A program made the position numbers and the translations under genes. Below, piece by piece: positions 9,145 to 31,258 of a DNA stretch of 64,000 nt. The stretch comes from Aquimarina agarivorans (lineage in GTDB: Bacteria > Bacteroidota > Bacteroidia > Flavobacteriales > Flavobacteriaceae), in the NCBI RefSeq assembly GCF_000218485.1, contig NZ_AFPB01000181.1, positions 1 to 64,000 on the forward strand, in the 5' to 3' direction. Under the pieces are notes generated by a model. That model was not told the DNA's origin and ran no database searches. It saw only the letters and a list, made by a program, of their open reading frames with translations. Position 1 is the stretch's first letter. Each line of letters starts with the position of its first letter.

Positions 9145-11664
9145 TTATTTCCAGTGTTCTGGCATTTTTTGATCCCTTAACGGAACAAATACCAAATTAT
9201 CATCCGATTCATCACTATTTACAAAGTGGCTGAAACGCTTCATCATTTCTGGACTTTCAATTGCTTGTTTCCACTCGCATTCAAATTTATTAACAAGAGT
9301 TTCCATCTCTTTGTCAAGGTCTGCAGCAATTCCTAATTTATCTTCAATAATTACTTCTTTTAGGTATTCAATACCACCTTCTAAACGGTCTTGCCATGCG
9401 GCAGTACGTTGTAAAGGTTTAGCCGTACGCATATAGTACATTAAGTATCGATCTAAGTATTTTACTACTGCTTCATTATCAATTTGTTCGGCCAGCAACT
9501 CAGCATGACGCGGTGTAGCACCACCATTTCCACCAACATATAAATTCCAGCCACCGTCCACAGCAATTAAACCAAAGTCTTTTCCACGAGCTTCCGCACA
9601 TTCGCGGATACATCCAGAAACACCTCCTTTAATTTTGTGTGGAGAGCGCATTCCTCGGTAACGATTTTCTAATTCAATACCAAAACTTACGCTTTCATCC
9701 ATTCCGTAACGGCACCATGTAGAACCTACACACGTTTTTACAGTACGTAATGATTTACCATAGGCATGACCACTTTCAAAACCGTAATCTACCAATTCTT
9801 TCCATATTTGTGGTAATTGATTTAGTGTAGCTCCAAACATATCGATACGTACACCACCAGTTATTTTAGTGTACAAATCATATTTTTTAGCAATTTCACC
9901 TAAAGCAATTAATTTATCAGGAGTAATTTCTCCTCCAGGAATTCTTGGTACCACTGAATACGTACCATTTCGTTGAATGTTGGCTAAAAAACGATCGTTA
10001 GAATCCTGAATTGCATATTCTTTATTGGCAGTGTCTGCATGAATTGTTGCCATTAATGAAGCCACTAAAGGCTTACATAATTCACATCCATGCCCACCAT
10101 TCCCATGATGATCCAAAACCTCATTAAAAGTTGTATATCCTTTTACTTGAATAAGGTCATAGAGTTCTTGACGGTTGTAGTCAAAATGTTCACACACATT
10201 GTCCTTTACCACACGTCCTAATGATTTTAAGATAGCATCAACTAAATCTTTCACCATGGGTTTACAACCACCGCAACCCGTTCCTGCCTTAGTACAGGTA
10301 ACAACATCGCCTAAATCATTAGCCTCGCCACTTTCAATAGCATTACATATTTGTCCTTTACTTACGCTTTCGCAAGAACAAATTTGAGCATCATCTGGTA
10401 AGTCCATAACATCACCTAATAATGATCCACCTTCGCCACCTCGACTGCCCAAAATTAAATCTTCAGGCTCTTCGGGTAGCTTCATTCCGTTACTATAAAT
10501 TTGGAACAATGAGTTGTAGTCAGAAGAATCACCAACTAGGATACCGCCCAATAATTTTTTTCCGTCCTTAGTAACATTTATTTTTTTATAAATTCCATTA
10601 CGTTTATTAACATAGGTAATTTCGTCTAAATCTTCTTTAGCATCATTCAAAGCGTCACCAAAACTAGCCACTTCAGTACCAATAAGTTTTAATTGAGTAG
10701 ACATGTCAATATACTCAGGCATTGCATTATCATTGCCTGTAATTTGATCAACAGCAACTTCGGCCATATCATAACCTGGAGCCACCAAGCCATAAATCAT
10801 GCTATTTAACAAGGCACATTCGCCAATGGCATAAATATTAGGATCGGAAGTAAGCATTTGTTGGTTTACAACAATACCACCTCGGGTACCCACTTCCAAA
10901 CCACATTCGCGAGCCACTTCATCTCTTGGTCTAATACCAGCTGAAACTACTAGCATATCCACTTTTAGTTCCGTGCCATCAACATACTGAAGTCCTTCAA
11001 TAGCTTTATCACCTTGTATATGTTGTGTTTGTTTTGATAAATGCACCTGTAATCCCAGACTTTCTATTTTTGCCTGTAGCATATCACTTGCGCCTTTGTC
11101 CAGCTGTCTTGGCATAAGGCGAGGAGCAAATTCTACTACGTGAGCGTTTAGTCCAAGGTTTTTAACTGCATTGGCAGCCTCTAAACCTAAAAGCCCACCA
11201 CCTAATACAGCAGCATCAGTTTTGCCGGCAGCTTTTAATTTTTTAGCATAAGCTTCGGTCGCTTCCAAATCTTCAATAGTACGGTATACAAAAACACCTT
11301 CCTTTTCCACTCCGGGAATAGGAGGAACAAAGGCAGAAGATCCGGTGGCTAGTACCAAATAATCATACGCGTATTTATCACCACGATGATTGGCAACAGT
11401 TTTATTAACGCGATCAATTTCGGTAATCATTTCCGAAACATGAAGATCAATATTATTTTCAGTATACCAAGTTGCTGAGGACATACTTAAATCTTCAGCC
11501 GTTTTGCCATCATAAAATTCACTTAAATGTACACGATCGTAAGCGCGTCTAGGTTCTTCGCCAAATACAACAAGTTTAAAATCTGAATAGTTTGGGTGAG
11601 CGGCAAGTTTTTCGCAAAACTTATACCCAACCATACCATTTCCAATAACTATTACTTTCTTCAT
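9145..11664 (-). CDS. nirB: Nitrite reductase (NAD(P)H) large subunit
   Basis: 839 aa from M-K-K-V-I-V-I-G-N-G-M-V-G. Domain order: FAD/NAD(P)-binding (GxGxxG at the N terminus; second dinucleotide fold G-G-G-L-L-G-L-E near residue 150), BFD-like [2Fe-2S] (I-C-S-C-E-S...C-T-K-A-G-T-G-C-G-G-C), then the nitrite/sulfite reductase repeats. The siroheme-4Fe4S ligands are C-V-G-S-T-W-C and C-I-R-E-C. It reduces nitrite to ammonium with six electrons. An upstream in-frame ATG at 11703 lies upstream of the inferred start of transcription, inside the operator array, so the start at 11664 is preferred; 11682 is a less likely alternative. Siroheme is required, but no siroheme gene is in the window. Confidence 0.95.
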   Translation of the reverse strand: MKKVIVIGNGMVGYKFCEKLAAHPNYSDFKLVVFGEEPRRAYDRVHLSEFYDGKTAEDLSMSSATWYTENNIDLHVSEMITEIDRVNKTVANHRGDKYAYDYLVLATGSSAFVPPIPGVEKEGVFVYRTIEDLEATEAYAKKLKAAGKTDAAVLGGGLLGLEAANAVKNLGLNAHVVEFAPRLMPRQLDKGASDMLQAKIESLGLQVHLSKQTQHIQGDKAIEGLQYVDGTELKVDMLVVSAGIRPRDEVARECGLEVGTRGGIVVNQQMLTSDPNIYAIGECALLNSMIYGLVAPGYDMAEVAVDQITGNDNAMPEYIDMSTQLKLIGTEVASFGDALNDAKEDLDEITYVNKRNGIYKKINVTKDGKKLLGGILVGDSSDYNSLFQIYSNGMKLPEEPEDLILGSRGGEGGSLLGDVMDLPDDAQICSCESVSKGQICNAIESGEANDLGDVVTCTKAGTGCGGCKPMVKDLVDAILKSLGRVVKDNVCEHFDYNRQELYDLIQVKGYTTFNEVLDHHGNGGHGCELCKPLVASLMATIHADTANKEYAIQDSNDRFLANIQRNGTYSVVPRIPGGEITPDKLIALGEIAKKYDLYTKITGGVRIDMFGATLNQLPQIWKELVDYGFESGHAYGKSLRTVKTCVGSTWCRYGMDESVSFGIELENRYRGMRSPHKIKGGVSGCIRECAEARGKDFGLIAVDGGWNLYVGGNGGATPRHAELLAEQIDNEAVVKYLDRYLMYYMRTAKPLQRTAAWQDRLEGGIEYLKEVIIEDKLGIAADLDKEMETLVNKFECEWKQAIESPEMMKRFSHFVNSDESDDNLVFVPLRDQKMPEHWK

Positions 11665-11684: not shown

Positions 11685-11726
11685 CAAAAATACGTATTTG
11701 CACTTAAATCTAAGTATAAATACGTA
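11685..11726 (-). promoter_or_regulatory. nirB promoter with two nitrate-region palindromes
   Basis: On the minus strand a -7 box TATTTTTG (plus 11685-11692) is overlapped by palindrome 1 (11691-11706, TACGTA-TTTG-CACTTA on the plus strand). Palindrome 2 follows at 11711-11726 (TAAGTA-TAAA-TACGTA). The two sites are exactly 20 bp apart, i.e. centred near -20 and -40 of the inferred start. Overlap with the -7 box suggests repression at the near site; the -40 position suits an activator. Confidence 0.7.
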
Positions 11727-11762
11727 TTTTTTTACTGATTTAGTTTAAAATCTAAAAAATCC

Positions 11763-13115
11763 TTACGAAGTTGCTAGAGTGTCGATTCTTTTTTGGAGGT
11801 TTTCTAATTTTGATTGCTCATCTTTAGCAATTTGCTCTTCTTCAGGGGTAAATCGAACTAACAGGCCTAAGAATCCTACAGCGGCTACTATAAATCCAAA
11901 TGCAAAAAATGCTTCTTGAAGACTAGCGCCACTTCTTAATAAATATTGCGCATAAAGTACTGCTCCTACGTTACCACCTGCGCCAACGATTCCGGCTACA
12001 GCACCTAAAGCTTTTCTGTTGATAAATGGAACAACTGAATAGGTAGCACCTTCAGCCATTTGAACAAATAGAGAGAAAAACACCATTGATGTTACCGCTA
12101 AACTTAATGAATTCATTTGCGAAAATAACAGTAAGGCTAACCCTTCAGCAACTACTACGTATACCAAAATTTTTACCCTTCCGTTAAGTCCTGAGTTTTT
12201 TCCGAATTTATCAGCAATCCACCCCCCAGTGGAACGGGCAAATAAGTTCATTGCACCAAAGAATAGTACAATAAATCCAGCAGTTTCTTGACTTAGGCTA
12301 AATTTTTCTTGATAATAGGTAGAAGCCTTCCCGGTAACAAATAATTCCATTCCGAAACATCCTGCGTACATTAAGAATAAAATCCATACTCTTTTATCCG
12401 AAGCTGCAGCCATGAAAGAACCTTTTTCACCTTTTTTGGTTTGCGGTCTTTCTTCCGGAAGGTCTTCATAATTCCCTTTTGGGCAATCTGTTGTGTATTT
12501 CCAGTATAAAAATGCGACTAGTAACATAATTGCAGCAGGGATATACATCGCAATTCTCCATGATGATGTAGCTTCAGCTAAGCCTAAGGCGGTAACACCA
12601 GCGGCTATTAATGGCATAGTAGCGTTGGTAACACCACCACCTAAATTACCCCAACCAGCAGTAGTTGCATTGGCTATACCAATTACATTGGGGGCAAACA
12701 TAACTGAAGTGTGATATTGCGTAATTACAAAAGATGCACCAATAACACCAATTGCCAAACGAGAAAGCAAATAAGTTTCCCATGTATTAGCAAATGAAGA
12801 CCCCGCAACAGCTAAGGCACCAAAAATTAGCAAGTATACGTAACTTTTTCGTGGTCCAATTTTATCACATAAAGGACCAATAAGTAAACGGGCAAAAATG
12901 GTAACCCCTACCGATGCAATAAATGCTAATGTAGTTTGTGCTTTGGTTAATGCCAAATCTGGTGCAATAGTTGATTTCATTAATGGCGCATGAGAGAACC
13001 ATCCGAAGAAACATAAAAAGAAAGCGATCCAACTCAAATGGAAGGTTCGCATTTGTACACTTTTAAAATCTGTAAGCTTTATTTTAGTAGCTTTACTAGT
13101 AGTTAAATTTTTCAT
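11763..13115 (-). CDS. narK: MFS nitrate/nitrite transporter NarK
   Basis: 450 aa from M-K-N-L-T-T-S-K. Twelve hydrophobic segments are expected. Both nitrate-signature glycine motifs of the NNP family are visible: G-W-G-N-L-G-G-G-V-T-N and A-G-I-V-G-A-G-G-N-V-G-A-V. The substrate-binding arginine contexts F-A-R-L-L-I-G-P-L-C-D-K and L-F-A-R-S-T-G-G-W-I-A-D are also visible. It moves nitrate in or exchanges nitrate and nitrite across the inner membrane. It lies upstream of nirB with about 100 bp between, and each has its own operator. The longer frame from 13148 would start at the -7 box, so 13115 is preferred. Confidence 0.93.
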   Translation of the reverse strand: MKNLTTSKATKIKLTDFKSVQMRTFHLSWIAFFLCFFGWFSHAPLMKSTIAPDLALTKAQTTLAFIASVGVTIFARLLIGPLCDKIGPRKSYVYLLIFGALAVAGSSFANTWETYLLSRLAIGVIGASFVITQYHTSVMFAPNVIGIANATTAGWGNLGGGVTNATMPLIAAGVTALGLAEATSSWRIAMYIPAAIMLLVAFLYWKYTTDCPKGNYEDLPEERPQTKKGEKGSFMAAASDKRVWILFLMYAGCFGMELFVTGKASTYYQEKFSLSQETAGFIVLFFGAMNLFARSTGGWIADKFGKNSGLNGRVKILVYVVVAEGLALLLFSQMNSLSLAVTSMVFFSLFVQMAEGATYSVVPFINRKALGAVAGIVGAGGNVGAVLYAQYLLRSGASLQEAFFAFGFIVAAVGFLGLLVRFTPEEEQIAKDEQSKLENLQKRIDTLATS

Positions 13116-13145
13116 AATTTTAGGAAGTATTGAATAAATCGACCG

Positions 13146-13191
13146 CAAAAGTAAGCGTATTTTTTTTTAAATACGTAAGTATTTGTACTTA
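13146..13191 (-). promoter_or_regulatory. narK promoter with nitrate-region palindrome
   Basis: A -7 box TACTTTTG on the minus strand (plus 13146-13153) is preceded by the perfect palindrome TAAGTA-TTTG-TACTTA at 13176-13191. Its centre is about -44 from the inferred start, an activator-like position. A further TACGTA half-site abuts it at 13172-13177. Confidence 0.7.
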
Positions 13192-13223
13192 TTATTTTGA
13201 ATTGCGTAATTAAGGTTTAATGC

Positions 13224-13253
13224 AAAAAAAAGCTTGCCGATTGATCGACAAGC
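13224..13253 (-). terminator. Rho-independent terminator of the porin gene
   Basis: A 10-bp stem with one wobble (GCTTGTCGAT/ATCGGCAAGC on the minus strand) is followed by eight T's. It sits between the porin stop codon and the narK promoter, so narK is not simply transcribed through from the porin gene. Confidence 0.85.
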
Positions 13254-13300
13254 CTTTTTGTTGTAATAAAGTTAGTATTCAGTTAAGTGCTTTATATATG

Positions 13301-14725
13301 TTATTTAGCTTCTGGAGCAGCTTCTTTTTTCCATTTAAAAATGTTAGGGTTAACAGTAATCATTACCCATCCCCAACTTTGGTTACTGTCAGCTTCTAAA
13401 GGGATATCATTACCTCTACTTGCTCTTGCATTAGCAAAGTCATCTCCAAGAAACGACTGAGAATATCCAACTTTAATGTTAGCATATGGTGTGATTCCTT
13501 GCACATAAACTAAATCAACAGAAGTTCCAAGGTTTGAATCCATTCCATCACGCGCATCAGCAGCACTGAAATTATGAACAAAACCAATAAGTTTAGATTT
13601 AGCACCAGTTTTTATTACAGATTTAAGGTGGATGTCGATTAAACCAACATCATTGGCGTGTCTTCCAACATAAAAGAAATCCTGAAATCCGTTAAATTTG
13701 TGGTTTGTACCAAATAAAGGAAAGAACGCGGTAGTTTCTCCTCCGCCAACGCCATCTTTGTCGCCACTTAGGATTTCAGCTCCTAAACCAATTAATTTGA
13801 ATGCGCCACTGCTTGGTTTATAGCCCGCAAATAAAGAAGCTTGATATGCAGAAATGTCTACATTTTTATTGAATTTCCCAAATTGGTAATAGACACTACC
13901 TGTTAAAGTGAAATTAGGGACATTGTATGCTCCGTAAAAACCAGTAGTTTGTCTTGATGATGTTCCATCTGTTGTTACTGATCTAGCAGGTGATGCAGGT
14001 GTTGGAAGTACTATTGGGAAAGACGTAAGGTTACCAGGAGTGGCTTCTACAGCAGGAATTGTTTCTCTATCCTGAAAAGTATTATTCATGAAAAGAAAGC
14101 TCCCTTTAAAATTTTCTGATAGTTTTCCTGACAAGTGTGCAAATTGCATTGCTTTATATTGAAAAATTTGTCCTCCAAGGCCTCTACCATTAAAAATTGT
14201 ATTAAAATTGTTTCCACCATCTCTTTCTTGATTGAAAGCAAAACCAACATCTAATTTTAGACTAGATTTTTTATATCTAAACAAAGCAACGTCATGAGTT
14301 CTCTGTTGTTGTGCCCATCCAAGTCCTCCAAGAATCCTTTGGTCGTCATAGCTTAATAATTGACGTCCTAATTTTGTAGACCATCCTTTATTTCCTAATT
14401 TAATTTCAGCCCAAGCTTGATTAACTAAGAAACCAGTTTGATTAGTTGGGTCATCATTTGCTGATAATTGAGGGCGATCTCCCCATACACTTACATCCTG
14501 AAAATCTAAAAAGGCAGTAATTTTGCTATCAGAATATTTTACTAATAATGACGATCTTTGTGAAACGAAAGCCGCAGGCTCTACACCATCAGGTGCTACG
14601 TCTTGAAAACCATGTCTATATTCAAAACGCGGTCTAATCATTGCATCAATAGATAACTCTTGTGCTGATGCACTATAAAGCCCTAATCCTAAAAGAGCAC
14701 TAATAAGTAAATGTGATTTTTTCAT
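13301..14725 (-). CDS. Outer-membrane porin, alginate-export-family type, probably for nitrate
   Basis: 474 aa. Signal peptide M-K-K-S-H-L-L-I-S-A-L-L-G-L-G-L-Y-S-A-S-A-Q, then a protein rich in alternating aromatic/polar strands ending I-F-K-W-K. The opening I-D-A-M-I-R-P-R-F-E-Y-R-H-G and the segment S-W-S-T-K-L-G-R-Q-L-L-S-Y-D-D-Q-R match the alginate-export (PF13372-like) beta-barrel family as I know it. Placement next to narK and nirBD, and a nitrate-type palindrome in its promoter, argue for passage of nitrate/nitrite rather than alginate. That substrate is inferred. It is transcribed away from the response-regulator gene. Confidence 0.82.
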   Translation of the reverse strand: MKKSHLLISALLGLGLYSASAQELSIDAMIRPRFEYRHGFQDVAPDGVEPAAFVSQRSSLLVKYSDSKITAFLDFQDVSVWGDRPQLSANDDPTNQTGFLVNQAWAEIKLGNKGWSTKLGRQLLSYDDQRILGGLGWAQQQRTHDVALFRYKKSSLKLDVGFAFNQERDGGNNFNTIFNGRGLGGQIFQYKAMQFAHLSGKLSENFKGSFLFMNNTFQDRETIPAVEATPGNLTSFPIVLPTPASPARSVTTDGTSSRQTTGFYGAYNVPNFTLTGSVYYQFGKFNKNVDISAYQASLFAGYKPSSGAFKLIGLGAEILSGDKDGVGGGETTAFFPLFGTNHKFNGFQDFFYVGRHANDVGLIDIHLKSVIKTGAKSKLIGFVHNFSAADARDGMDSNLGTSVDLVYVQGITPYANIKVGYSQSFLGDDFANARASRGNDIPLEADSNQSWGWVMITVNPNIFKWKKEAAPEAK

Positions 14726-14758
14726 AAAATTTAGTTATGGTTATAAATAACAACGAGA

Positions 14759-14799
14759 CAAATATAAGTATTAATACTTAGTTGATATCTAAGTATTTT
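14759..14799 (-). promoter_or_regulatory. Porin promoter with nitrate-region palindrome
   Basis: A minus-strand -7 box TATATTTG (plus 14759-14766) abuts the perfect palindrome TAAGTA-TTAA-TACTTA (14765-14780), centred near -20. A second TAAGTA half-site lies at 14790-14795 with a weak partner. The gap TACTTAG-TTGATAT-CTAAGTA between them is itself symmetrical at its ends. Confidence 0.68.
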
Positions 14800-14910
14800 T
14801 ATTTTTTTTGTATAAAAGTTTATTTTTTGAAACGAGTAAGATCAGTAAAAGAGAGGTGTTATACTGTGTGTTTAGGTTTAATATATTTACTATCATTTAT
14901 TTAGTATTCA

Positions 14911-14939
14911 AAAATACGTATTTTAAGTATAGGTACGTA
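14911..14939. promoter_or_regulatory. Pair of nitrate-region palindromes between porin and response-regulator genes
   Basis: The perfect palindrome AAAATACGTATTTT (14911-14924) is joined directly to TAAGTA-TAGG-TACGTA (14924-14939). It is about 190 bp from the porin start and 240 bp from the response-regulator start, so it could act on either gene from a distance. No good -7 box is adjacent. Confidence 0.55.
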
Positions 14940-15124
14940 TTGTAAAATATTGTTAAAATTTAAAAAATTGGTACGCTCAGAAGCCTATTTAAAAACAAAA
15001 TAGAATTCAAATATCTGTTTTTGCTACTAGAATTATCCGATTTTTTGTTATTGCATTATTTTGTTAGCTCAAATAGAAAAATTTATAGTATTATCATATT
15101 TTGGATTACTTATAAAAAAAGAAT

Positions 15125-15154
15125 TTTGTATATTTCATTACTTAGTTATTTTTG
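15125..15154 (+). promoter_or_regulatory. Promoter of the response-regulator gene
   Basis: A -33 TTTG (15125-15128) and a -7 box TATTTTTG (15147-15154), 18 bp apart, precede the ATG by about 28 bp. A single TACTTA half-site lies between the boxes (15139-15144). Confidence 0.6.
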
Positions 15155-15181
15155 TACTTTTTTATAAATAGAAAATTTTAA

Positions 15182-15874
15182 ATGCATATAAATAAAATTT
15201 TACTTGTTGATGATCACTCCTTAGTGCGTGATGGAATTAAATCCTTGTTGGAGAATGAATCTGATTTAGAAGTTGTAGGAGAGGCTTCAAATGGTGAAGA
15301 GGCTATTCAGGCAACAGATACATTTAAACCTGACTTAGTCATTTGTGATATTCGAATGCCAAAAAAAACGGGTATTGAGGCAGTATCCTATTTAACTAAG
15401 CAGCATCCTACAATTAAATTTATCATGCTATCCATGCATGATTCTGAAGAATATATTTTGCAATCCATCCAAGCAGGTGCTCATGGATACTTGCTTAAGG
15501 ATGCAGGTAAGGATGAAGTATTGAAAGCTATACATTCCGTTTTGGATGGAGGGAAGTATTTTAGTGGCGATGTTTCATCAATTTTGGTAAATAATCTTGT
15601 AAGTGGCGGATTAAACGTAAAGACAATTAAGCCAACAGAACCAGAAGCCAATACATCAGATGGTGTAGCCAATTTTAATTTAACCAAACGAGAAAAGCAA
15701 ATTTTAGAAAAAGCCGTTGCAGGATTAAGTAATAAAGAAATTGCGGAGGAATTAGGTATCAGTAAACGTACAACCGAGGTGCATCGTTTTAATTTGATGA
15801 AAAAATTAAACGTTAAAAATATTCTAGATTTAAGTAACAAAGCTCGTAAATATGGGCTACTTGATGAGAAGTAA
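15182..15874 (+). CDS. NarL/FixJ-family response regulator
   Basis: 230 aa. The receiver domain (about 1-120) has the acidic pair D10-D11, phospho-acceptor D56 in D-L-V-I-C-D-I-R-M-P, and K106 in L-L-K-D-A. A ~25-residue linker leads to a LuxR-type helix-turn-helix (L-T-K-R-E-K-Q-I-L-E...G-L-S-N-K-E-I-A-E-E-L-G-I-S-K-R-T-T-E-V-H-R, about residues 165-215). This class is activated by HisKA_3 kinases such as the one at 3345-5141. It is the only DNA-binding regulator in the nitrate region and the first candidate to bind the TA[AC]GTA-N4-TAC[GT]TA palindromes. It stands alone between its own promoter and terminator. Confidence 0.92.
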   Translation: MHINKILLVDDHSLVRDGIKSLLENESDLEVVGEASNGEEAIQATDTFKPDLVICDIRMPKKTGIEAVSYLTKQHPTIKFIMLSMHDSEEYILQSIQAGAHGYLLKDAGKDEVLKAIHSVLDGGKYFSGDVSSILVNNLVSGGLNVKTIKPTEPEANTSDGVANFNLTKREKQILEKAVAGLSNKEIAEELGISKRTTEVHRFNLMKKLNVKNILDLSNKARKYGLLDEK

Positions 15875-15929
15875 AATTAAATTAAGTAAACTGAGATTTA
15901 TTAGTATACGTATTGATTCAAAAATACTT

Positions 15930-15960
15930 AAAAAGCCATATCAAGTTATATGGCTTTTTT
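15930..15960 (+). terminator. Rho-independent terminator of the response-regulator gene
   Basis: A stem AAAAAGCCATAT/ATATGGCTTTTT with a six-base loop and a six-T tail, 56 bp after the stop codon. Confidence 0.9.
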
Positions 15961-16126
15961 GTTTTAGCATGTTATTTTTATTTAAAGTTTCCAAATAAAA
16001 CTAAATTGTAGTTAGAGAGACCTATGTTTTTAGATTCAACAAAAATTCATAATTTTAATTTGAGTAATTTAAAATATAACTGGTAGTACTTATTATACAA
16101 AAAATGATAAAATATTTACTGACTTA

Positions 16127-17890
16127 TTACTGTATGCGTTTCCATCTAATTTTTGCAAATACAGCTATTAAAATTAAAATAGGTACAACTATAAAAATCC
16201 ACGTTGGTATAGGAACTGGGTTACCTTTGGCGTAGGAGTGAAGTCCTGATAAGTAATAATTCACTCCAAAAAAAGTCATTATCAAGCTGCTTAAGGCAAA
16301 TAAGCTAAAAACATTATAAGTGTACAAAAAGTTGCTTTTAAAAATAATTCTTATGTGTAACACAAAAGAATAAATAATAATACTAATTAAAGCCCAGGTT
16401 TCTTTAGGATCCCAACCCCAATACCTGCCCCAAGACTCGTTAGCCCAAACACCTCCTAAAAATGTACCAACACTTAACATAAACAGACCAATTGTGGTGG
16501 TTTTTTCATTTATTTTGGTGAGCTCAATAATTTTTGGATGAATACGTTGTTTTTGGGCTTTTGAAATAAAGAGCATGCAAATTAATACGATTAGCGCCAG
16601 TAAAGACCCCATGGTTAAAAAACCATAACTTCCTGTAATAACAGCTACGTGAATCATCAACCAATAGGATTTTAATACGGGGACTAAATTGGTAATTTCG
16701 GGATTCATTAAATTTCCATGGGCAATTCCCATAAGGCAAACAGCAATGAGTGCAGTAGCAGCTGCTGGTAGTTTGGATTTTTTACTAAATGCAATTCCTG
16801 CAAGGACAGCTATCCATGAGATAAAAATTGTGGCTTCATATCCGTTACTCCATGGTGCATGACCTGAAACGTACCAGCGTAAAATAATTCCAAATCCATG
16901 GTAGGCAAAAATTGCAATTACTCCTATGAATCCAATTTTTCCGATAACAAAAATCCATTTTTTGTCAAAAAATAACTCAAAAAAACCGGCAATAAGGAGT
17001 ATGATGCCCACTAACGTGTAAGCCATCATGCTTTTAAAAAAAATATGCTGTTTGTTATAGCTAATTTCCCAAGCAATTTTATTAGGAGATATTAGTAAAT
17101 TTGGAGCATTCTTTTTCTGAAACGCAGTAAGTATGTCAATAGTTTCGTTGGCCGCGGTCCAGTTGTTACTAGTTTTTGCTTTTTGCAATTGCAGTAAATA
17201 ATTTGGAATTATTTTATTGTATACTAATTGATCATCGCCAATAAAATTAGCCTCTTCTTTAGGAGCATACCAAGTATTATTTTCCGCAATAGGACTTGGA
17301 AAAATTTTTAAAAATTGTCCATTAAAAATAGCCCATATAATATTCAGGCGTTCATCAATTTTGATAATACTTTTATCCAGCGTGTTGCGTTTACCTTCTA
17401 CTTTAGCATAAGCATCAGTAACTAAGGGTTTAATTAGGTAATTCCCATCAAAACTAAAAAATTGTGCAGGTTTTGCATATCCTTTATCGGATATGGGTAG
17501 GAGGTTGCTTATAGTGTCATGAACTGTTTTTTCGATCTTAATACAAGGTAGTAACTGCCAGGAGTCAGGTTTAAATTGCATTCCTAGAAAAGCCTGAGTA
17601 GCGGTTACTTTTTTTATCTTGTTGGATTGATCTTTATACTTAAAATTATCCTTTCCGTAAATTTTACGGAGCAAATCTACAGCAAGTGTATGCACAGGTT
17701 TTATGCGTCCTTGAAAGTCCTGTATTTGAATTTTTGCAAAATTTTCGGCGTGATCTGCATCAATAAGCTGGCGATTTATTAATTCATAAGGGGCTAATTT
17801 ATGGAGCTGCTGCGCCACAGTAATTTGAATTTGTAAGCTAAAGATTAGTACAAATACAGTTAAAATTTGATGTTTTCTATTTGATTTCAT
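16127..17890 (-). CDS. ccsA: Cytochrome c maturation protein CcsA (System II), with extended N-terminal region
   Basis: 587 aa. A leading hydrophobic signal/anchor is followed by a ~260-residue soluble periplasmic region. About eight transmembrane helices (residues ~283-585) then carry the haem-handling WWD motif R-Y-W-G-W-D-P-K-E-T-W near residues 486-496. Conserved His residues flank it (e.g. in L-M-I-H-V-A and F-V-L-H-I-R). CcsA delivers and attaches haem to CXXCH motifs in exported cytochromes together with CcsB. Its start overlaps the ccsB stop by 4 bp (ATGA). It is the last gene of an operon that also encodes the cytochromes it would mature. Confidence 0.9.
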   Translation of the reverse strand: MKSNRKHQILTVFVLIFSLQIQITVAQQLHKLAPYELINRQLIDADHAENFAKIQIQDFQGRIKPVHTLAVDLLRKIYGKDNFKYKDQSNKIKKVTATQAFLGMQFKPDSWQLLPCIKIEKTVHDTISNLLPISDKGYAKPAQFFSFDGNYLIKPLVTDAYAKVEGKRNTLDKSIIKIDERLNIIWAIFNGQFLKIFPSPIAENNTWYAPKEEANFIGDDQLVYNKIIPNYLLQLQKAKTSNNWTAANETIDILTAFQKKNAPNLLISPNKIAWEISYNKQHIFFKSMMAYTLVGIILLIAGFFELFFDKKWIFVIGKIGFIGVIAIFAYHGFGIILRWYVSGHAPWSNGYEATIFISWIAVLAGIAFSKKSKLPAAATALIAVCLMGIAHGNLMNPEITNLVPVLKSYWLMIHVAVITGSYGFLTMGSLLALIVLICMLFISKAQKQRIHPKIIELTKINEKTTTIGLFMLSVGTFLGGVWANESWGRYWGWDPKETWALISIIIYSFVLHIRIIFKSNFLYTYNVFSLFALSSLIMTFFGVNYYLSGLHSYAKGNPVPIPTWIFIVVPILILIAVFAKIRWKRIQ

Positions 17891-19284
17891 ACCATGTTGG
17901 TTTTAGGGATGAAAGCAAATAATTGGGTGTTCCACAACAAGCTACAAAACATACCTAAGGCGAGTAATGCATAACCAATGTAAGTGACAAAAGTGCCCCA
18001 ATAATCGTGATTTACAGATAATATAGTACCACTTTCGTCAGGCAAATATGCCGACTGAAAAAATCGATATCCTTTGTAATCCAATACATTATTCATAAAA
18101 ATTTGATAGTCCAATGTATCAGATGGGCTTGTAAGCTGTAAATCGCTATAAAAAGCTGATGGACTGTCCGAGCCCGGATAACGTTCCAAAGTAAAATTCT
18201 TTAATCTTACGGAAAAGGGTAAATGAATAGGGCGGGATCCGTACCGAAGTTTTAAATGCATATTGTTGATATATAAAGTGGTATTCGGATTCATGTATCC
18301 TTTTCCTCCAAATAATGTTAATTCTTTACTTTCAGTACCTGAAGTTACTTGAATTTTAATTGCGGATTCTGGATTTTTTACCTTTGGGTCAATCTCTTTT
18401 TGGATTAATTGTAGTGTCTTGTTATTTTCAACGCTATTGAAAACAATTGGCACCTTATTAATTTCGCTAAGCGCCTTAAATTTTAATGGGGTAAATGTAT
18501 TTTTTTTATAAGAACCCGCTTTATTTTCAAGCATTGAAAAATAATTAGTGGTTTCAGGAAAACGTGCTACAACTGCAGAATCGGTTGTTTTAATATAGAT
18601 TTCATTTAACAACTCATATGGGGTTTCAAAAGCAATGGTTAATCCATAAAAGTTTTTTCGGGTTCCTTTTTTTAAATAAAAGTCCTTGCGCTGAGCATCA
18701 TCAGCAATAACAAGGTGTAAAAAATCATCCCCATTTTTAGCATCCTTTAACACGTAGGCAGCTCTAGGTATAAATTTATTGAGTGTTACATTAATTTTTT
18801 TGTCTTGAAAAGTGTAATTCTCATTTATATGGTTAAATCCAAGCTGACTCATTATTACAGGAGTGGGACTATAATTTTTAGTAAACTTTTCATCATCTGC
18901 CTGTAGTTGTAAAAAACTATCAATACTTAAAATACGGTTGGTATTTTCATTTTCCTTAATAGTTACCAATGCCTCAAAACCACGGTATTTAGTAATTCCA
19001 GCTCCAATAATTATAATAATGAATGCTAAATGTAACAGTAAAACAGGAGCCTTTTCCCAACTAACTAAATTGTATTTGGCTATATTTCCCATAAAATTAA
19101 CACCTAATAATACTATAATAATCTCAAACCATTTGGCTCCATAAATTAAAGCTTTACTAGTTTCCGTTCCGTAATCATTTTCAATAAATGTGGCTATAGC
19201 CATGGCTAATGCAAAAATGATAAGTAAAACACCAGTAAGTTTAGTGGAAAAAAAGAATTTTAGAATAGTATTCAACAAGCGCAT
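17887..19284 (-). CDS. ccsB: Cytochrome c maturation protein CcsB/ResB
   Basis: 465 aa. Three N-terminal transmembrane helices (about residues 12-33, 47-66, 76-98), a large periplasmic domain, and a C-terminal helix (about 437-455) give the ResB/CcsB layout. Family-like sequences include G-A-K-W-F-E-I-I-I-V-L-L-G-V-N-F and the ending F-V-T-Y-I-G-Y-A-L-L-A-L-G-M-F. It is the partner of CcsA in System II haem delivery. It follows the monohaem cytochrome gene after 32 bp. Confidence 0.88.
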   Translation of the reverse strand: MRLLNTILKFFFSTKLTGVLLIIFALAMAIATFIENDYGTETSKALIYGAKWFEIIIVLLGVNFMGNIAKYNLVSWEKAPVLLLHLAFIIIIIGAGITKYRGFEALVTIKENENTNRILSIDSFLQLQADDEKFTKNYSPTPVIMSQLGFNHINENYTFQDKKINVTLNKFIPRAAYVLKDAKNGDDFLHLVIADDAQRKDFYLKKGTRKNFYGLTIAFETPYELLNEIYIKTTDSAVVARFPETTNYFSMLENKAGSYKKNTFTPLKFKALSEINKVPIVFNSVENNKTLQLIQKEIDPKVKNPESAIKIQVTSGTESKELTLFGGKGYMNPNTTLYINNMHLKLRYGSRPIHLPFSVRLKNFTLERYPGSDSPSAFYSDLQLTSPSDTLDYQIFMNNVLDYKGYRFFQSAYLPDESGTILSVNHDYWGTFVTYIGYALLALGMFCSLLWNTQLFAFIPKTNMV

Positions 19285-19316
19285 ATATCAGAAGGGAAAA
19301 GATTGGAAGGTGAAAA

Positions 19317-19700
19317 TTACTTTTTCATTCCTGTGGAAATCCAAGACGAAATCAGGGCTATGGAACAAGTATCTATTTTTTTATTTGCTTTATAAGGCAT
19401 TGGAACAAAACCTCTTTTATGTGTTAATGCACCCAATAGAAAGCCACTTTCGGCCATTTTTTTTAAATTCTGATAATCGTATATTTTATTTCGCGATGCC
19501 TTTTGTTTGTATACATCTGGCGCATGGCATTTAAAACATTTTTCTTCAATTACAGCCGCTACGTCATTAGTATATGTAATTTGTTCGGAGGTATTGCAAT
19601 TCACTTTAGGCTTGTTGTTGCAAGCCATTAAAAAGAGGCCTATAACACTATAAATTAACACGAATAATTTGGTTGCAGATGGGAATTTTAAAGTTTTCAT
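19317..19700 (-). CDS. Monohaem c-type cytochrome lipoprotein
   Basis: 127 aa. Lipoprotein signal with lipobox L-F-L-M-A-C27, then a single haem-attachment site C55-F-K-C-H59 and downstream methionines (P-M-P-Y, near residue 100) that could be the sixth ligand. The segment V-A-A-V-I-E-E-K-C-F-K-C-H-A-P is typical of small cytochromes fused to or partnering membrane oxidoreductases. It probably sits on the outer face of the inner membrane and passes electrons from the pentahaem protein encoded 3 bp upstream. Confidence 0.85.
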   Translation of the reverse strand: MKTLKFPSATKLFVLIYSVIGLFLMACNNKPKVNCNTSEQITYTNDVAAVIEEKCFKCHAPDVYKQKASRNKIYDYQNLKKMAESGFLLGALTHKRGFVPMPYKANKKIDTCSIALISSWISTGMKK

Positions 19701-19703
19701 AAG

Positions 19704-20420
19704 CTACTTTTTATACTTTGATTTAATTTTTTTCCACTCTTCTTCACTTAAAGGTAAATGTTTCTTATTTTTGGTAAAAGGATCATCGCCTCCAGCTAAG
19801 TAATCTTGTATTTTGGTAAGGGCTATAGTATCTTTAATTTTTTCGGCAGTTTTGTAAATATGATTTCCATGGAAATCATGACATTGCAAACAAGTACTCC
19901 ATTGTTCATTAGCAATTAATTGACTATGAGGAACATCAATAGGGTCATTTTTAACCTTAAGATCATAGTGGCAATTTACGCAAAAGGTAGCATCGGCAAG
20001 TACAACTCGGGTATCGTTATGCTCACGGTGACAAGTTTCACATTGGGTAGCATCAATTTTGGCAATGGCATCTTTAAATTTAGGTTCAAAAAAACGATGC
20101 GTAGGGTGCCTATCATTAGGCCTGTCATGACATTCTAAACATTTTTTTGTATCCACATTTTCGGTTCCAAAATCCACAGGTTTTTTACGTGTGCCAAAAG
20201 TAAAAGCAACGTTAGCTTGTATTTGTTGCATTAAATTTCCTTTAGCATCAGTGTGGCAAGCATCACATGATAGTCCTTCATGTCCAGTGTTCATTGGACC
20301 CAGGCTTAAAAAATCTTCTGTAGCCTTTTGGGGCAGAATGATAAAAATAAGTAAGCCGATACCAATGCCAATTAATGAACCTATGTATTGTCTTTTACGA
20401 AGTGGATTTTTATTAAACAT
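19704..20420 (-). CDS. Membrane-anchored pentahaem c-type cytochrome
   Basis: 238 aa. One N-terminal transmembrane anchor (about residues 12-30), then five CXXCH sites starting at Cys 52, 94, 127, 147 and 177, with many additional His residues for bis-His ligation. It resembles the cytochrome c3 / NapC-NirT-like class, but I cannot assign it to a named family. Such proteins carry electrons from the membrane to periplasmic acceptors. The flavoprotein reductase gene precedes it by 14 bp and the monohaem gene follows by 3 bp, so all three are co-transcribed. Confidence 0.85.
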   Translation of the reverse strand: MFNKNPLRKRQYIGSLIGIGIGLLIFIILPQKATEDFLSLGPMNTGHEGLSCDACHTDAKGNLMQQIQANVAFTFGTRKKPVDFGTENVDTKKCLECHDRPNDRHPTHRFFEPKFKDAIAKIDATQCETCHREHNDTRVVLADATFCVNCHYDLKVKNDPIDVPHSQLIANEQWSTCLQCHDFHGNHIYKTAEKIKDTIALTKIQDYLAGGDDPFTKNKKHLPLSEEEWKKIKSKYKK

Positions 20421-20434
20421 GAATTAAATTTACA

Positions 20435-21472
20435 TTATTGAGGAAGCGTGATCGCTACATTTTCAGATGTAGGGAAACTGATACAAGTCAAAATATAACC
20501 TTCGGCAATTTCATTTTCGGGTAACAAATGACCATCTAACATTTTAACACTACCCGATGTACATTTTGCTTTGCAAGAGCTGCACATTCCTGATCTGCAT
20601 GAATATGGAATTTCGACATTACTATCCAAAGCAGCTTTTAGAATTGTTTCACCTTTGTTAACAGTAATGGTAGAGTCAAATCCTACACCACTTAATGTTA
20701 CCGAGGATGCATCAACACTTTCTGCTTCCATTTTGGAAAGGTCAGCCGTAAAGGCTTCCAGCATTATTTTATTTTCAGGAACACCGTTATTTGTAAGTAT
20801 AGCTACTGCGGCATCCATAAATCCCTGAGGGCCACATAGCATGAATTTACCAGTACTATAAGCAATACCTTTGGTTTGAAGTATTTCATTTAATTTAGTT
20901 TCATTTAACCTTCCTTCATAATAATGCTTTTCAGGAGTGTCCACAGATTCTAAAAAATGGTGCATTACAATACGATCTGGGTATTTTTGAAGCAATGCTT
21001 CAAGCTCCTTTTTGAAAATGATCGTATTTTTATTTTGGTTAGCGTAAATTAATAAAATACTTGATTTGGGTTCTTTTTCAAGTACCGATAGAATAATTGA
21101 ATATATTGGTGTAATACCACTACCGCCAGCAAGTAATATATATTGATTAGCTTCTTTTTTATTGGGAACTACAAAAAAGTTTCCCATGGGTTTATCAATT
21201 TCAATTTTTTGACCTTCCTTAAGTTGATCGCATATATAATTTGAAACCAAACCATCTTTTACTTTTTTTACAGTAATACGTAAATATTTGTGTAACCAAG
21301 GGCTGCTACTTAGGGAGTAGGATCTATTTTCGATTCTGTTTTTAACCGGAACTTTTAAAGTTAAAAATTGTCCAGATTTATATTTAATCGAACTAAAAAA
21401 GCCAGGTTTTTTAAAAATGACACTTACCGCATCATCGGTTTCTTGTACTATTTTGTCAACTGTTAATAGCAT
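20435..21472 (-). CDS. FAD/NAD(P)H reductase with C-terminal plant-type [2Fe-2S] ferredoxin domain
   Basis: 345 aa. Ferredoxin-NADP reductase-like FAD motif R-S-Y-S-L-S-S-S (about 51-58). Pyridine-nucleotide motif G-G-S-G-I-T-P-I near residues 115-122 and C-G-P-Q-G-F-M near 215. C-terminal ferredoxin with C-R-S-G-M-C-S-S-C...C ligands (about 290-330). This is the layout of class IA-type oxygenase/HMP reductases. No oxygenase is nearby. The next gene upstream (25 bp) is a haem-b-like membrane protein, so it probably feeds electrons from cytoplasmic NAD(P)H into the membrane. Confidence 0.88.
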   Translation of the reverse strand: MLLTVDKIVQETDDAVSVIFKKPGFFSSIKYKSGQFLTLKVPVKNRIENRSYSLSSSPWLHKYLRITVKKVKDGLVSNYICDQLKEGQKIEIDKPMGNFFVVPNKKEANQYILLAGGSGITPIYSIILSVLEKEPKSSILLIYANQNKNTIIFKKELEALLQKYPDRIVMHHFLESVDTPEKHYYEGRLNETKLNEILQTKGIAYSTGKFMLCGPQGFMDAAVAILTNNGVPENKIMLEAFTADLSKMEAESVDASSVTLSGVGFDSTITVNKGETILKAALDSNVEIPYSCRSGMCSSCKAKCTSGSVKMLDGHLLPENEIAEGYILTCISFPTSENVAITLPQ

Positions 21473-21497
21473 GCCTTTTAAGTATTTGTTAAACTAG

Positions 21498-21980
21498 TTA
21501 TTCGTAATAAAAGACTACTCCAATGTGGAATAGACTAACAAATGTGATAATTATTGAAAAAGCAACATGGGTGATCATCCAGGATTGGAATACCCAGTTT
21601 TTTTTGGATTTTATGATATCTAAATTGACAACACCTAATAACATATTTGTAAAAAACAAATAGGAGAGTAGTGCTAAATACCCATACCCAAACTCCATAA
21701 CATGTACGTAAAATAGTATGGGAGAAAAAGCCCCTATCCATTTGTGGATGGTGGTTAATTTTACGGAATATTTCCAAAGTCGCTTCCAAACTCTAGAAAT
21801 AGTTAAAACCCATTGAAAAACAATAAGCAAAAATACTGCAAGACCTGACCAGCGCTTATACATTTGATTGTGTTCCTGCAATTCATAAAGCCACATCCAT
21901 TTTACAGGTAAAAAGTATTGTACAATGTATAATACGAATAAAAAGATACCGATATTAAAAAAAGAAAACACTCGTTTCAT
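21498..21980 (-). CDS. Ferric-reductase-like / cytochrome b-type membrane protein
   Basis: 160 aa with four or five transmembrane helices. Histidines sit within or beside the helices in positions suited to haem binding: T-I-H-K-W, F-Y-V-H-V-M, M-I-T-H-V-A-F and S-L-F-H-I-G. Together with the adjacent NAD(P)H reductase it looks like the membrane half of a ferric-reductase-like transmembrane electron carrier. I do not recognise a precise family. It is the first gene of the tight cytochrome/ccs cluster, although the Tll0287-like cytochrome gene 165 bp upstream may be co-transcribed with it. Confidence 0.7.
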   Translation of the reverse strand: MKRVFSFFNIGIFLFVLYIVQYFLPVKWMWLYELQEHNQMYKRWSGLAVFLLIVFQWVLTISRVWKRLWKYSVKLTTIHKWIGAFSPILFYVHVMEFGYGYLALLSYLFFTNMLLGVVNLDIIKSKKNWVFQSWMITHVAFSIIITFVSLFHIGVVFYYE

Positions 21981-22033
21981 AGCAATTAGGATGTTCTTGT
22001 TTTACCCTTTTTTGGGATTTGTTTTTCAGGAGT

Positions 22034-22068
22034 AAACCTTCGAATTTGCAGTAGTGCTTCGAAGGTTT
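22034..22068. other. Perfect 11-bp inverted repeat between the Tll0287-like and cytochrome b-like genes
   Basis: AAACCTTCGAA...TTCGAAGGTTT with a 13-base loop. No T run follows on either strand, so it is not a standard terminator. Candidates are an RNA processing/stability element or a protein-binding site. Confidence 0.75.
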
Positions 22069-22145
22069 AATTCTGATTCAAGCGCTAACATAAAATGCAT
22101 GCAATTTTTTTTATGCAAATTATTTTAGAAAAAAAATTGTTTTAT

Positions 22146-22988
22146 TTAATTTGAAGCTACTGGAACTCCTTTTTTAACCAATATTTCAAGTGATTTATAT
22201 GATGTTAACTTACGTACACTATCAATAAATACTTCTGCTGTTGGTAAATTAAATCCTTTTGAAGGCCATGTATTACCAATTGCTGGTTTTGGACTGTTTT
22301 TAAAGTTGGCAATTTCAGCTAAATAAGCGTTGTAAATTGCTTTGGTTCCATTTCGGTAAGCGTTCAGTACACCTATAGCTTCTTTGTATGATAAAGAATC
22401 GGAAGGATATTGCCATGTTGTAGCTCCCATTACATCACCTAACTTCCAATCTTTTTTTGTAGTATTTTTATGATCATTGTGGCAATTTACACAAGGGGCA
22501 GCCATGGCCATATCAGCAAACATTGCCGTGTGTAATTTTTGTGATTCATCATAAAAAAATTGAGGCTTTTGGTTTGCTTTAATTTTTTTGAATAATTCGG
22601 CTTGCTTACCCTCTAATTTGTTGGATGCATTAATCGGAAAATCAGAACCTAAGTATAAGCCTAGCGGCACACTACTTTTTCTTATGTCTGATGAGATTCC
22701 TCTTAAAAATAAAGCAGGTAATGGTCCGGCTTCAACTTCATCATCTTGCCAGTCCTCATCAAATTTTAAACCTTGTTTTTTGCCAGCGCCTACGATACCT
22801 TTTGTATAAAGTGTTCTTGTAACATCGTTTTCTGATGCTACCATTTCTAAAACCTCTTCAACAGAAAAAGCTTTGTCATTAATAGCTATTTCTGTTGCAC
22901 TTTCTTCAGGCATACTACCACCACATGATGTTAGTATTTTAGTCAAACTTAATACTAGTGCAAATTTTGTAAACTTTAGATTTTTCAT
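22146..22988 (-). CDS. Tll0287-like (DUF3365) haem lipoprotein
   Basis: 280 aa from M-K-N-L-K-F, with lipobox I-L-T-S-C22. A single C-V-N-C-H-N-D-H site near residue 165, followed by K-K-D-W-K-L-G-D-V-M-G-A, is the hallmark I know for DUF3365/Tll0287-like proteins, a PAS-like haem domain that may sense or transfer electrons. The TTG-initiated longer frame (22994) adds only two residues. A perfect nitrate-region palindrome lies about 85 bp upstream of the start. The electron-transfer operon lies downstream in the same direction, so this may be its first gene. Confidence 0.85.
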   Translation of the reverse strand: MKNLKFTKFALVLSLTKILTSCGGSMPEESATEIAINDKAFSVEEVLEMVASENDVTRTLYTKGIVGAGKKQGLKFDEDWQDDEVEAGPLPALFLRGISSDIRKSSVPLGLYLGSDFPINASNKLEGKQAELFKKIKANQKPQFFYDESQKLHTAMFADMAMAAPCVNCHNDHKNTTKKDWKLGDVMGATTWQYPSDSLSYKEAIGVLNAYRNGTKAIYNAYLAEIANFKNSPKPAIGNTWPSKGFNLPTAEVFIDSVRKLTSYKSLEILVKKGVPVASN

Positions 22989-23067
22989 AAACAAATGAAT
23001 TTAATGGATTTTTATGTTAACAACTATGTAGGGAGTGTGCACATGATTTCAACAATAAATTCAATAT

Positions 23068-23088
23068 CAAACTAAGTACAAATACTTA
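23068..23088 (-). promoter_or_regulatory. Promoter of the Tll0287-like gene with nitrate-region palindrome
   Basis: The perfect palindrome TAAGTA-CAAA-TACTTA (23073-23088, extended by matching AC/GT on both flanks) overlaps a near-consensus -7 box TTAGTTTG on the minus strand (plus 23068-23075). The centre is about -20 from the inferred start. A weaker site, TAAGTA-ATAG-TATCTA, lies at 23107-23122. Confidence 0.65.
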
Positions 23089-23227
23089 GTTATTTTTTGG
23101 TAAAAATAAGTAATAGTATCTAAATAGAATGTATGATTGTATTTTTTTTTCGCTGAAAAGTAAAGTTTTGATAATTGTTCATTTTTTAAAATCATTATTG
23201 CTTATTATGCAATAGCATTTAAAACCC

Positions 23228-23263
23228 AAAAAAGGGATTACCTTTACAGTAATCCCTTTTTTT
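23228..23263 (-). terminator. Terminator of the double NarX/PilJ-like gene
   Basis: GGGATTAC/GTAATCCC stem, 7-base loop, flanked by an A run on the left and a T run on the right, so it works in either direction. It lies about 70 bp beyond the minus-strand gene's stop and upstream of the next operator. Confidence 0.88.
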
Positions 23264-23332
23264 AATTATCATTTATTAGTTAAATATCAATAAAAATAGT
23301 CTCTATGTAATTTTTAAGTGTTTTAAATTGTG

Positions 23333-24169
23333 TTATAATGAAGTATACTGACCGGTAATAATATTGTATAAATTGGTAATTTTATTACTCAGCATCATTA
23401 TTTTTGATAGTGGTATTTTATTATTGAAAAAATCTCTTTTATTGTCTTCAATTTGGTTAAATAAAGTTAGCACCTCGCCAATTTTTTGTTCAATAGTAAA
23501 AGTGTTTAAATCATTTATAAGTAATGAATTTAAGGAGTTATTCATTTCTGCATAAATTTTTTCAACTTCAACACACAATCCTTTGTAATTTAGTTTTTCT
23601 TTTCTGAAAACCCTACATGCGGTGTAGTATAAGCATAGCCGTTGTGATAGCATGCGTTGTTTTCCAGATAAATTGACAGTTTCCACTTTTAACTGATCTT
23701 CGTTGTTGCTTTCAGAAAACTCTTTGCTGTATTTTGAGTCTTCTTCAATAGCTAATACTAAAGAGTGGCAGCGTTTCAATAATTCGTTTGAAGATGTCAT
23801 TACATTGTTCAAGTTTTTGTTGGACCTGTTATTAATGATGTTTTTGAACGTTTCCCATTGTTCTTTTTCTCTTTTGACTGCTGCACGTACCTTTGGAGAT
23901 GATTTTTTGGAATTCGTTTCAAGTATACTCAGGTTACGTTGAAATAATTGCAAACTTGAATTGTATTCGCTATTCACTTCATTTCCATTGGCTCCAGCCA
24001 AACGTAATAAGTAAATTTTTGCAATACGCTGTGACAGCATGCGTTGTTTTCCTGAAATATTTGTAGCTTTTTCATAACTAATATTTCCAAATTTTTCTTG
24101 CTCGTTAGCAAAACTAAAATTAATAACACAAAGTAGTGTTATTGTAGAAAGGGTAATTAACTTTTGCAT
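23333..24169 (-). CDS. Periplasmic protein with two NarX/PilJ-like sensor repeats and no output domain
   Basis: 278 aa. Signal peptide about residues 1-21 (ending F-S-F-A). Two helical repeats each carry the motif N-x-S-G-K-Q-R-M-L-S-Q-R (GKQRMLSQ at 40-47 and 169-176). It is identical over eight residues to that in the histidine kinase at 3345-5141 and resembles the NarX nitrate-binding P-box. There is no transmembrane anchor, kinase, chemotaxis or enzyme domain. It could be a soluble nitrate/nitrite-binding partner, buffer or competitor for the kinase. The gene is divergent from nrtA and shares a control region with it. Confidence 0.78.
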   Translation of the reverse strand: MQKLITLSTITLLCVINFSFANEQEKFGNISYEKATNISGKQRMLSQRIAKIYLLRLAGANGNEVNSEYNSSLQLFQRNLSILETNSKKSSPKVRAAVKREKEQWETFKNIINNRSNKNLNNVMTSSNELLKRCHSLVLAIEEDSKYSKEFSESNNEDQLKVETVNLSGKQRMLSQRLCLYYTACRVFRKEKLNYKGLCVEVEKIYAEMNNSLNSLLINDLNTFTIEQKIGEVLTLFNQIEDNKRDFFNNKIPLSKIMMLSNKITNLYNIITGQYTSL

Positions 24170-24205
24170 TTGTTATAAATTGGGGGTTGTATTTATTTTT
24201 TTTCA

Positions 24206-24240
24206 CAAATTTAAGTAATACTTATCTATAGAACTAAGTA
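24206..24240 (-). promoter_or_regulatory. Promoter of the double NarX/PilJ-like gene
   Basis: A minus-strand -7 box TAAATTTG (plus 24206-24213) sits beside TAAGTA-A-TACTTA (24212-24224, only one base between half-sites). Another TAAGTA follows at 24235-24240. The half-sites match the nitrate-region motif but the spacing is different, so membership in the regulon is uncertain. Confidence 0.5.
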
Positions 24241-24356
24241 TTTTGTGTAAAAGTAAGTATTAAATGTATTAAAAAAGATCTTTACTGACTTTTTTTGTAG
24301 AAAATATCTTACATAAATATTTATTTAACAGTTAATTGAGTATTTATTTTAAAAAA

Positions 24357-24401
24357 ATAAGTATTATCTACGTATTAATACGTAATTAATACTTATGTTT
24401 G
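24357..24401 (+). promoter_or_regulatory. nrtA promoter with nested 40-bp near-perfect palindrome
   Basis: Outer arms ATAAGTATT (24357-24365) and AATACTTAT (24388-24396) are exact reverse complements. The core TACGTATTAATACGTA (24369-24384) is itself a perfect 16-bp palindrome. The -7 box TATGTTTG (24394-24401) overlaps the right arm. Read as pairs, half-sites fall near -42 and -21 of the inferred start, as at nirB. Confidence 0.75.
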
Positions 24402-24433
24402 TGGTGTTAAAGAAAATAATCAATCCTATATTT

Positions 24434-29927: not shown

Positions 29928-29933
29928 AGATAG

Positions 29934-31231: not shown

Positions 31232-31258
31232 GGTATAATTTTTTGTAAAAATACGCAA

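Follow-up and report, generated by a model that had tools for sequence, protein, structure and literature searches.

Nitrate and nitrogen assimilation are under poorly known control in Bacteroidota. We analysed a 64,000-nucleotide stretch of the Aquimarina agarivorans genome (contig NZ_AFPB01000181.1, positions 1 to 64,000; hereafter the window), which carries genes for nitrite reductase (nirB), a narK-type transporter, a porin and an nrtA-type substrate-binding protein, together with a NarL-type response regulator and a sensor kinase (Table 1). A 16-bp palindrome, TAMGTA-N4-TACKTA, recurs upstream of several of these genes and is the subject of this report. A pattern scan of the window found six perfect copies within 12.7 kb, at 11711, 13176, 14765, 14924, 23073 and 24369, and two copies with one mismatch, at 11691 and 29906; in 500 dinucleotide shuffles of the window, perfect copies averaged 0.022 with a maximum of one. 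The scan bears out the original prediction from this DNA, which had placed the motif at the nirB (two copies, exactly 20 bp apart), narK, porin, Tll0287-like and nrtA promoters. Of two further copies claimed between the porin and regulator genes, that at 14924 is perfect and that at 14790 has two mismatches, with 14765 being the porin promoter's own copy. The site at 29906 was absent from the earlier list.

Table 1. Genes, palindromic sites and other features of the window. Offset, start of the TAnnTTTG (-7) box relative to the end of the motif.
Feature	Position	Strand	Details
Sensor kinase	3345..5141	-	PilJ + HisKA_3 + HATPase_c (PF13675 E 1.6e-10, PF07730, PF02518); proposed nitrate sensor
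nirB, nitrite reductase large subunit	9145..11664	-	start shifted from GTG 11703 to ATG 11664 by comparison with relatives
nirB proximal site	11691..11706	-	one mismatch, TAAGTGCAAATACGTA; final TA common to -7 box TATTTTTG (11685-11692), offset -2
nirB distal site	11711..11726	-	perfect, TACGTATTTATACTTA; 20 bp upstream of proximal copy; offset 18
narK-type nitrate/nitrite transporter	11763..13148	-	
narK site	13176..13191	-	perfect; -7 box TACTTTTG at 13146-13153, offset 22
Outer-membrane porin, Alginate_exp family	13301..14725	-	
Porin site	14765..14780	-	perfect; fused with -7 box TATATTTG (14759-14766), offset -2
Second perfect site, porin/regulator interval	14924..14939	.	minus strand, -7 box at offset 7; plus strand, none within 50 bp
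NarL-type response regulator	15182..15874	+	Response_reg + GerE domains; proposed binder of the sites
Tll0287-like gene	22146..22994	-	first gene of cytochrome/ferric-reductase-like block
Tll0287-like gene upstream site	23073..23088	-	perfect
Stand-alone protein near nrtA	23333..24169	-	two GKQR (PilJ-type) motifs, no kinase domain
nrtA site	24369..24384	+	perfect; -7 box TATGTTTG at 24394-24401, offset 9; extra half-sites either side
nrtA-type substrate-binding protein (NMT1_2)	24434..25816	+	start 24434 preferred to listed ATG 24395 from comparison with relative G007
Site before candidate small RNA	29906..29921	+	one mismatch, TAAGTATTAATGCGTA; fused with -7 box TAATTTTG (29920-29927), offset -2
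Candidate small RNA	29932..30055 (approximate; ends inferred)	+	12-bp closing stem, T-run, 77-nt core 29971-30047
Small RNA region counterparts	window 29906-30055 (+); L364 1754-1903; L365 3423-3576 (-)		

Most of these sites stand at set distances from a TAnnTTTG sequence, the -7 box mapped at positions -12 to -5 in F. psychrophilum (PMC9723704). With the box at -12 to -5, an offset of -2 centres the site near -18.5, and offsets of 18 to 22 centre it at about -38 to -43, in keeping with the original claim of centres about 20 and/or 40 bp upstream of the inferred start. No exact TAnnTTTG was found within 50 bp downstream of the Tll0287-like gene site. The box beside the 14924 site (14905-14940, minus strand) faces the porin gene from about 180 bp away, possibly marking a second porin promoter or a short transcript.

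The palindrome is conserved at the nitrate loci of relatives. The best 80 of 571 nirB loci from an alignment scan of species genomes, about 1.65 Mb in all, include Aquimarina, Polaribacter, Algibacter, Maribacter, Tenacibaculum, Winogradskyella, Flavobacterium, Galbibacter and Membranihabitans, with uncultured Aquimarina being the closest nirB relatives of the source genome among the matches listed. These loci hold 235 perfect sites against none of the pattern read backwards, which served as control, and 341 against 50 when up to one mismatch is allowed; 78 of the 80 have at least one perfect site. A perfect site lies within 130 bp in 77 of 79 flavobacterial nirB promoters, and a site within one mismatch in all 79 (L195, a fragment, was excluded). 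The palindrome at nirB promoters looks like an old, widely shared regulatory site.

Sixteen of the 235 sites fall in open reading frames (ORFs). The others yield 255 distinct, oriented contexts, a site between divergent genes entering twice; 130 of these have TAnnTTTG starting at offset -2, with the TA shared by site and box, and no other offset occurs more than eight times. In nirB promoters the site most often abuts the -7 box, the -40 place coming second. The 80 loci are mutually related, and thinning to below 65% identity leaves 67 site-plus-box promoters, whose consensus reads TAAGTATTAATACTTA and then nnTTTG; at its two ends the spacer has T in 78% and A in 79% of them. Single TACGTA half-sites, counted in 46 promoters, peak at about 33 bp (15) and 22 bp (11) upstream and about 31 bp (10) downstream of the site, in helical phase.

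Across the source genome (4.07 Mb, 182 contigs), 16 perfect sites were found against two of the reversed pattern, and by our ORF calls all 16 are intergenic, a 112-aa ORF antisense to the nrtA promoter (24364-24702) being treated as spurious. Allowing up to one mismatch gives 68 places against 105 for the control, without enrichment. The genome-wide frequency check originally proposed as a refutation thus has a divided outcome: the motif is in excess in its perfect form and not in its relaxed form. The latter count speaks for chance or a compositional effect of AT-rich intergenic DNA, and single weak matches carry no meaning by themselves and may be chance. For perfect sites such an effect is ruled out by the shuffles, the genome count and the 80 loci, and it would not account for the fixed distance to the -7 box; we give it almost no weight as an explanation of the palindrome.

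The original prediction named the regulator at 15182 as the local candidate for binding these sites. Its nearest solved structure is E. coli NarL (1a04, E 5.3e-33), and of the NCBIfam models NarL comes second by E-value, behind MctR. It scores below the curated cut-offs for both NarL (153.6 vs 250 bits) and NarP (133.5 vs 343 bits), and its sequence classes it as NarL-like, not NarL. The prediction overlooked a partner, likely the NarX-like PilJ/HisKA_3 kinase at 3345, in which GKQR at residue 55 preserves the G-x-x-R motif as defined for PilJ-type nitrate sensing (PMC8199190). Kinase matches in four relatives (G002, G016, G027 and G046) begin at about residue 180-196, within open frames of 443-469 aa, and these kinases may be without a PilJ sensor or carry a different N-terminus. 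A 2021 review of Bacteroidetes (PMC8199190) calls such a kinase/regulator pair narHK/narRR; its Figure 3 legend lists JH651379.1 (Galbibacter orientalis) with nirB, kinase and regulator in order. This record is our locus L220, where, as for example in L206, the order nirB-nirD-DUF4202-kinase-regulator agrees with the linkage of narHK/narRR to nirB. In the available extract, the review covers sensors and gene order without an operator or regulon, and the words "promoter" and "7-2-7" are absent. The literature searched, outside subscription journals and preprints, yielded the names narHK/narRR in that review only and no flavobacterial or Bacteroidetes nitrate operator or binding site.

Co-occurrence of sites and regulator supports the regulator as the predicted binder. 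An orthologue is present in 24 of 56 relatives (E <= 2.5e-68; the next-best match of any genome is 3.3e-38). Within the genus, perfect sites number 6-16 per genome in the 22 with the orthologue and 1-5 in the 11 without (p 3.7e-6), with no difference for the reversed control (p 0.43); this and the following tests ignore relatedness. Sites shared by G004, G020 and G030, which lack the regulator, were discarded, being located inside an ORF. All 23 relatives with nirB have the orthologue, the 24th orthologue genome, G021, being 55% complete, and all 23 have the PilJ kinase, as does G031. A full-length regulator is missing from 13 of the 80 nirB loci, and each of the 10 such genomes tested has exactly one elsewhere (E 8.6e-66 or better).

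Since regulator, kinase and nirB are distributed alike among the 56 relatives, that set alone cannot separate them, and another transcription factor co-inherited with the nitrate genes could bind the palindrome, the NarL-type regulator being a passenger. To separate regulator from target, 395 genomes of the class were drawn, 19 of which, outside the genus, carry nirB. In the six with the orthologue (E <= 4.4e-67), the 150 bp upstream of nirB contain three to seven half-sites, including a perfect palindrome in four, whereas the 13 with weaker regulators (best E 3.3e-55) or none have zero half-sites (12) or one (1). At least three half-sites are therefore found in 6/6 against 0/13 (Fisher p 3.7e-5; perfect palindromes alone, p 0.0039). 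The recognition helix, RT-E-HRF/Y, is kept among orthologues and replaced in the regulators of the 13 genomes. Across these genomes the predicted sites follow the orthologue of the 15182 regulator rather than nirB, and the 13 nirB promoters without the palindrome rule out a motif belonging to nirB itself. Perfect sites also occur in the neighbourhood of the regulator gene in 23 of 24 loci examined, and no other DNA-binding protein, CRP/FNR included, was found among the 30 window proteins scanned (3345-42593). A passenger role for the regulator thus seems improbable. A different palindrome-like stretch, TATAGTTA..ATTAACTAT, directly precedes nirB in L319 and L329 (genomes G354 and G450, of the same genus) and adjoins a more distant NarL-type regulator with a different recognition helix; it is perhaps another operator type.

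The system resembles E. coli NarX-NarL/NarQ-NarP in its PilJ-type kinase with G-x-x-R, its NarL-family regulator, its inverted half-sites 10 bp apart and its putative targets nirB and narK. Tandem sites about 33 bp apart are likewise found at E. coli ogt (-44.5, -77.5; PMC7419079). The half-site TACTTAT fits the NarL heptamer TACYYMT (PMC4886647), as originally noted, but the "divergent, 4-bp gap" geometry described with it is ambiguous: read outside-in, the same 16 bp become TAMGTAT-NN-ATACKTA, the NarL 7-2-7 register with one disagreeing base per half, and the sequence is compatible with both readings. The full consensus TACYYMT-NN-AKRRGTA is not matched, position 4 of each half disagreeing by construction of the pattern. 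Unlike in E. coli, the consensus is TAAGTATTAATACTTA, with half-sites divergent as TACTTA or in the 7-2-7 register with a different base at position 4, the recognition helix differs, the flavobacterial site usually merges with the -7 box, and the Bacteroidetes kinase lacks HAMP and GAF according to the review (PMC8199190).

From the computed sites, their conservation, their fusion to the box and their co-occurrence with the regulator and kinase, we infer the pairing of regulator with operator, the signal sensed and the sign of regulation. In our favoured reading, which we hold with good though not full confidence, the palindrome is the operator of a NarXL-like two-component system of Flavobacteriaceae formed by the narHK/narRR pair at 3345 and 15182. 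Periplasmic nitrate or nitrite would be sensed via the PilJ domain of the kinase, which would phosphorylate the regulator, and the phosphorylated regulator would bind, as a dimer, to TAMGTA-N4-TACKTA, whose half-sites are 10 bp apart from centre to centre. In the promoter spacer would lie the main operator, its TA common with the sigma-A -7 box; another dimer site, or isolated TACGTA half-sites, would often stand two or three turns of the helix from it. The bound regulator would compensate for a missing -33 element, and activation by nitrate would be expected for nirBD, narK, the porin, nrtABCD, nasC, a globin and the regulator's own operon.

Several points weigh against this reading. Two outside-genus orthologue genomes (G271 and G424) have half-sites without a perfect palindrome, and G046 has the regulator with sites no more numerous than the control (4 vs 4). 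G031 (89% complete, 370 contigs) yielded no regulator orthologue, yet two perfect sites lie beside its PilJ gene and the kinase is matched in part. Among the class genomes the fused site and box occurs 14 times in 10 of 395, eight of these in four of the seven genomes known to carry the regulator; six genomes outside the regulator test hold one each (G066, G235, G299, G324, G382 and G435), and the reversed site-plus-box pattern was counted 11 times among the matches listed. The absence of a TTG at the -33 place (present in 1/46 site promoters vs 18/124 other TAnnTTTG promoters) differs just weakly from other promoters of this type (p 0.026) and was set aside as proof of activation. Position over the -7 box also points away from activation, a centre near -18.5 being a usual repressor place. 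E. coli NarL, by comparison, activates ogt from -44.5, -67.5 or -77.5 (PMC7419079).

The same regulator and sites could act with opposite sign, as a core-promoter repressor released by nitrate or nitrogen shortage. The usual site does overlap the -7 box at its TA, an element that RNA polymerase has to occupy. However, E. coli NarX/NarQ are activated by nitrate, after which phosphorylated NarL binds DNA (PMC7419079), so that nitrate would hardly be expected to repress nitrate genes; moreover, the second sites near -40 in nirB and narK and the in-phase upstream half-sites resemble activator arrays. We regard repression as an unlikely but serious alternative. Given binding, we lean moderately towards activation by the regulator, with which kinases activated by nitrate, positive autoregulation and the in-phase arrays would agree.

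The predicted regulon extends beyond the window. Its ten perfect sites elsewhere in the genome include one 26 bp upstream of a nasC-type molybdopterin nitrate reductase gene and two, 23 bp apart, at the gene for a two-match globin protein. Others lie at glnA, in the interval between a gltB-like and a PII gene, at a BBP2 porin, at an AraC-type regulator, between an lpd-like and a lipoprotein gene, and at sdhC-like and SusC/TonB-type genes (glnA, PII, globin, BBP2, AraC and nasC were named by Pfam; gltB, lpd, sdhC and SusC by sequence reading alone). In the relative G007, 12 of 15 perfect sites have a counterpart in the source genome, two are within ORFs and one is located 249 bp from a gene; the source-genome sites at the SusC/TonB-type and sdhC-like genes (C5 and C9), at 14924 and one of the globin sites have no perfect counterpart there. 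The globin gene lies with a site inside the nitrate cluster in G007 and on another contig here, where it retains two sites.

Perfect sites at glnA were found in 4/21 regulator-bearing loci against 0/9 others (30 loci; 36 genomes with matches), in G000, G005, G007 and G021, and at PII/gltB in 3/21 against 0/9 (30 loci; 33 genomes with matches), in G000, G005 and G007, and at no other loci examined; L240, L265 and L282, included in these counts, are clipped at contig ends and possibly misplaced. These counts rule out a general nitrogen motif of all genomes, and the predicted growth of the regulon to ammonium assimilation (glnA, gltB/PII) and other functions is specific to the clade of the source genome. 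The palindrome-marked nitrate regulon originally proposed is supported by the nirB promoters, the sites at other nitrogen genes and the globin case, but its scope is too narrow in the source species group, because glnA and gltB/PII carry sites. A palindrome upstream of nitrate genes and glnA recalls NtcA and CRP-FNR-type regulators. Their consensus sites, GTA-N8-TAC for NtcA and TTGAT-N4-ATCAA for FNR, differ from the palindrome in spacing or bases.

We speculate, tentatively and expecting that it may well prove wrong, that the regulator is a NarL-family protein activating from within the core promoter, with an operator that is merged with the -7 element and substitutes for the -33 contact. 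In a single Aquimarina clade it would have spread from nitrate genes to the entire path from nitrate through ammonium to glutamine/glutamate (nasC, glnA, gltB, PII) and to a structured small RNA, as a functional stand-in for NtrC/NtcA in Bacteroidota. Together, the results supply a testable 22-bp operator-plus-promoter signature, name a putative regulator and sensor, predict a regulon with clade-specific growth to ammonium assimilation, raise the matter of how a NarL-type protein works beside the -7 box, and point to a candidate nitrogen-responsive small RNA.

That RNA would lie behind the one-mismatch site at 29906, which is fused to TAATTTTG and has no gene downstream on the plus strand. The region 29932-30055 probably encodes a new small RNA: it folds at -31.3 kcal/mol against a shuffle mean of -17.9 (z -4.6), and its 77-nt core is identical in the source genome, G005 and G007, where the one-mismatch site and -7 box are also kept; in comparison with G005/G007, identity is 85-86% for nrtD and 73-74% for the moeA region. 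As the core is identical, without covariation, comparison does not prove the structure. No Rfam match was found, nor any further convincing covariance-model match in 85 sequence sources, the loci reaching past nrtD being uncounted. The RNA may also end moeA transcripts, because in relatives a few bases separate the end of its stem from the moeA stop. moeA itself (30182-31258, minus strand) is listed with 358 aa and a TTG start, compared with 390 aa in G007 and 392 aa in G005; its 3' end may be altered in the source genome, because similarity continues past the stop.

Lastly, the stand-alone PilJ-type protein near nrtA is possibly a periplasmic nitrate-binding protein; 11 upstream sites were assigned to it in relatives among the 80 loci.

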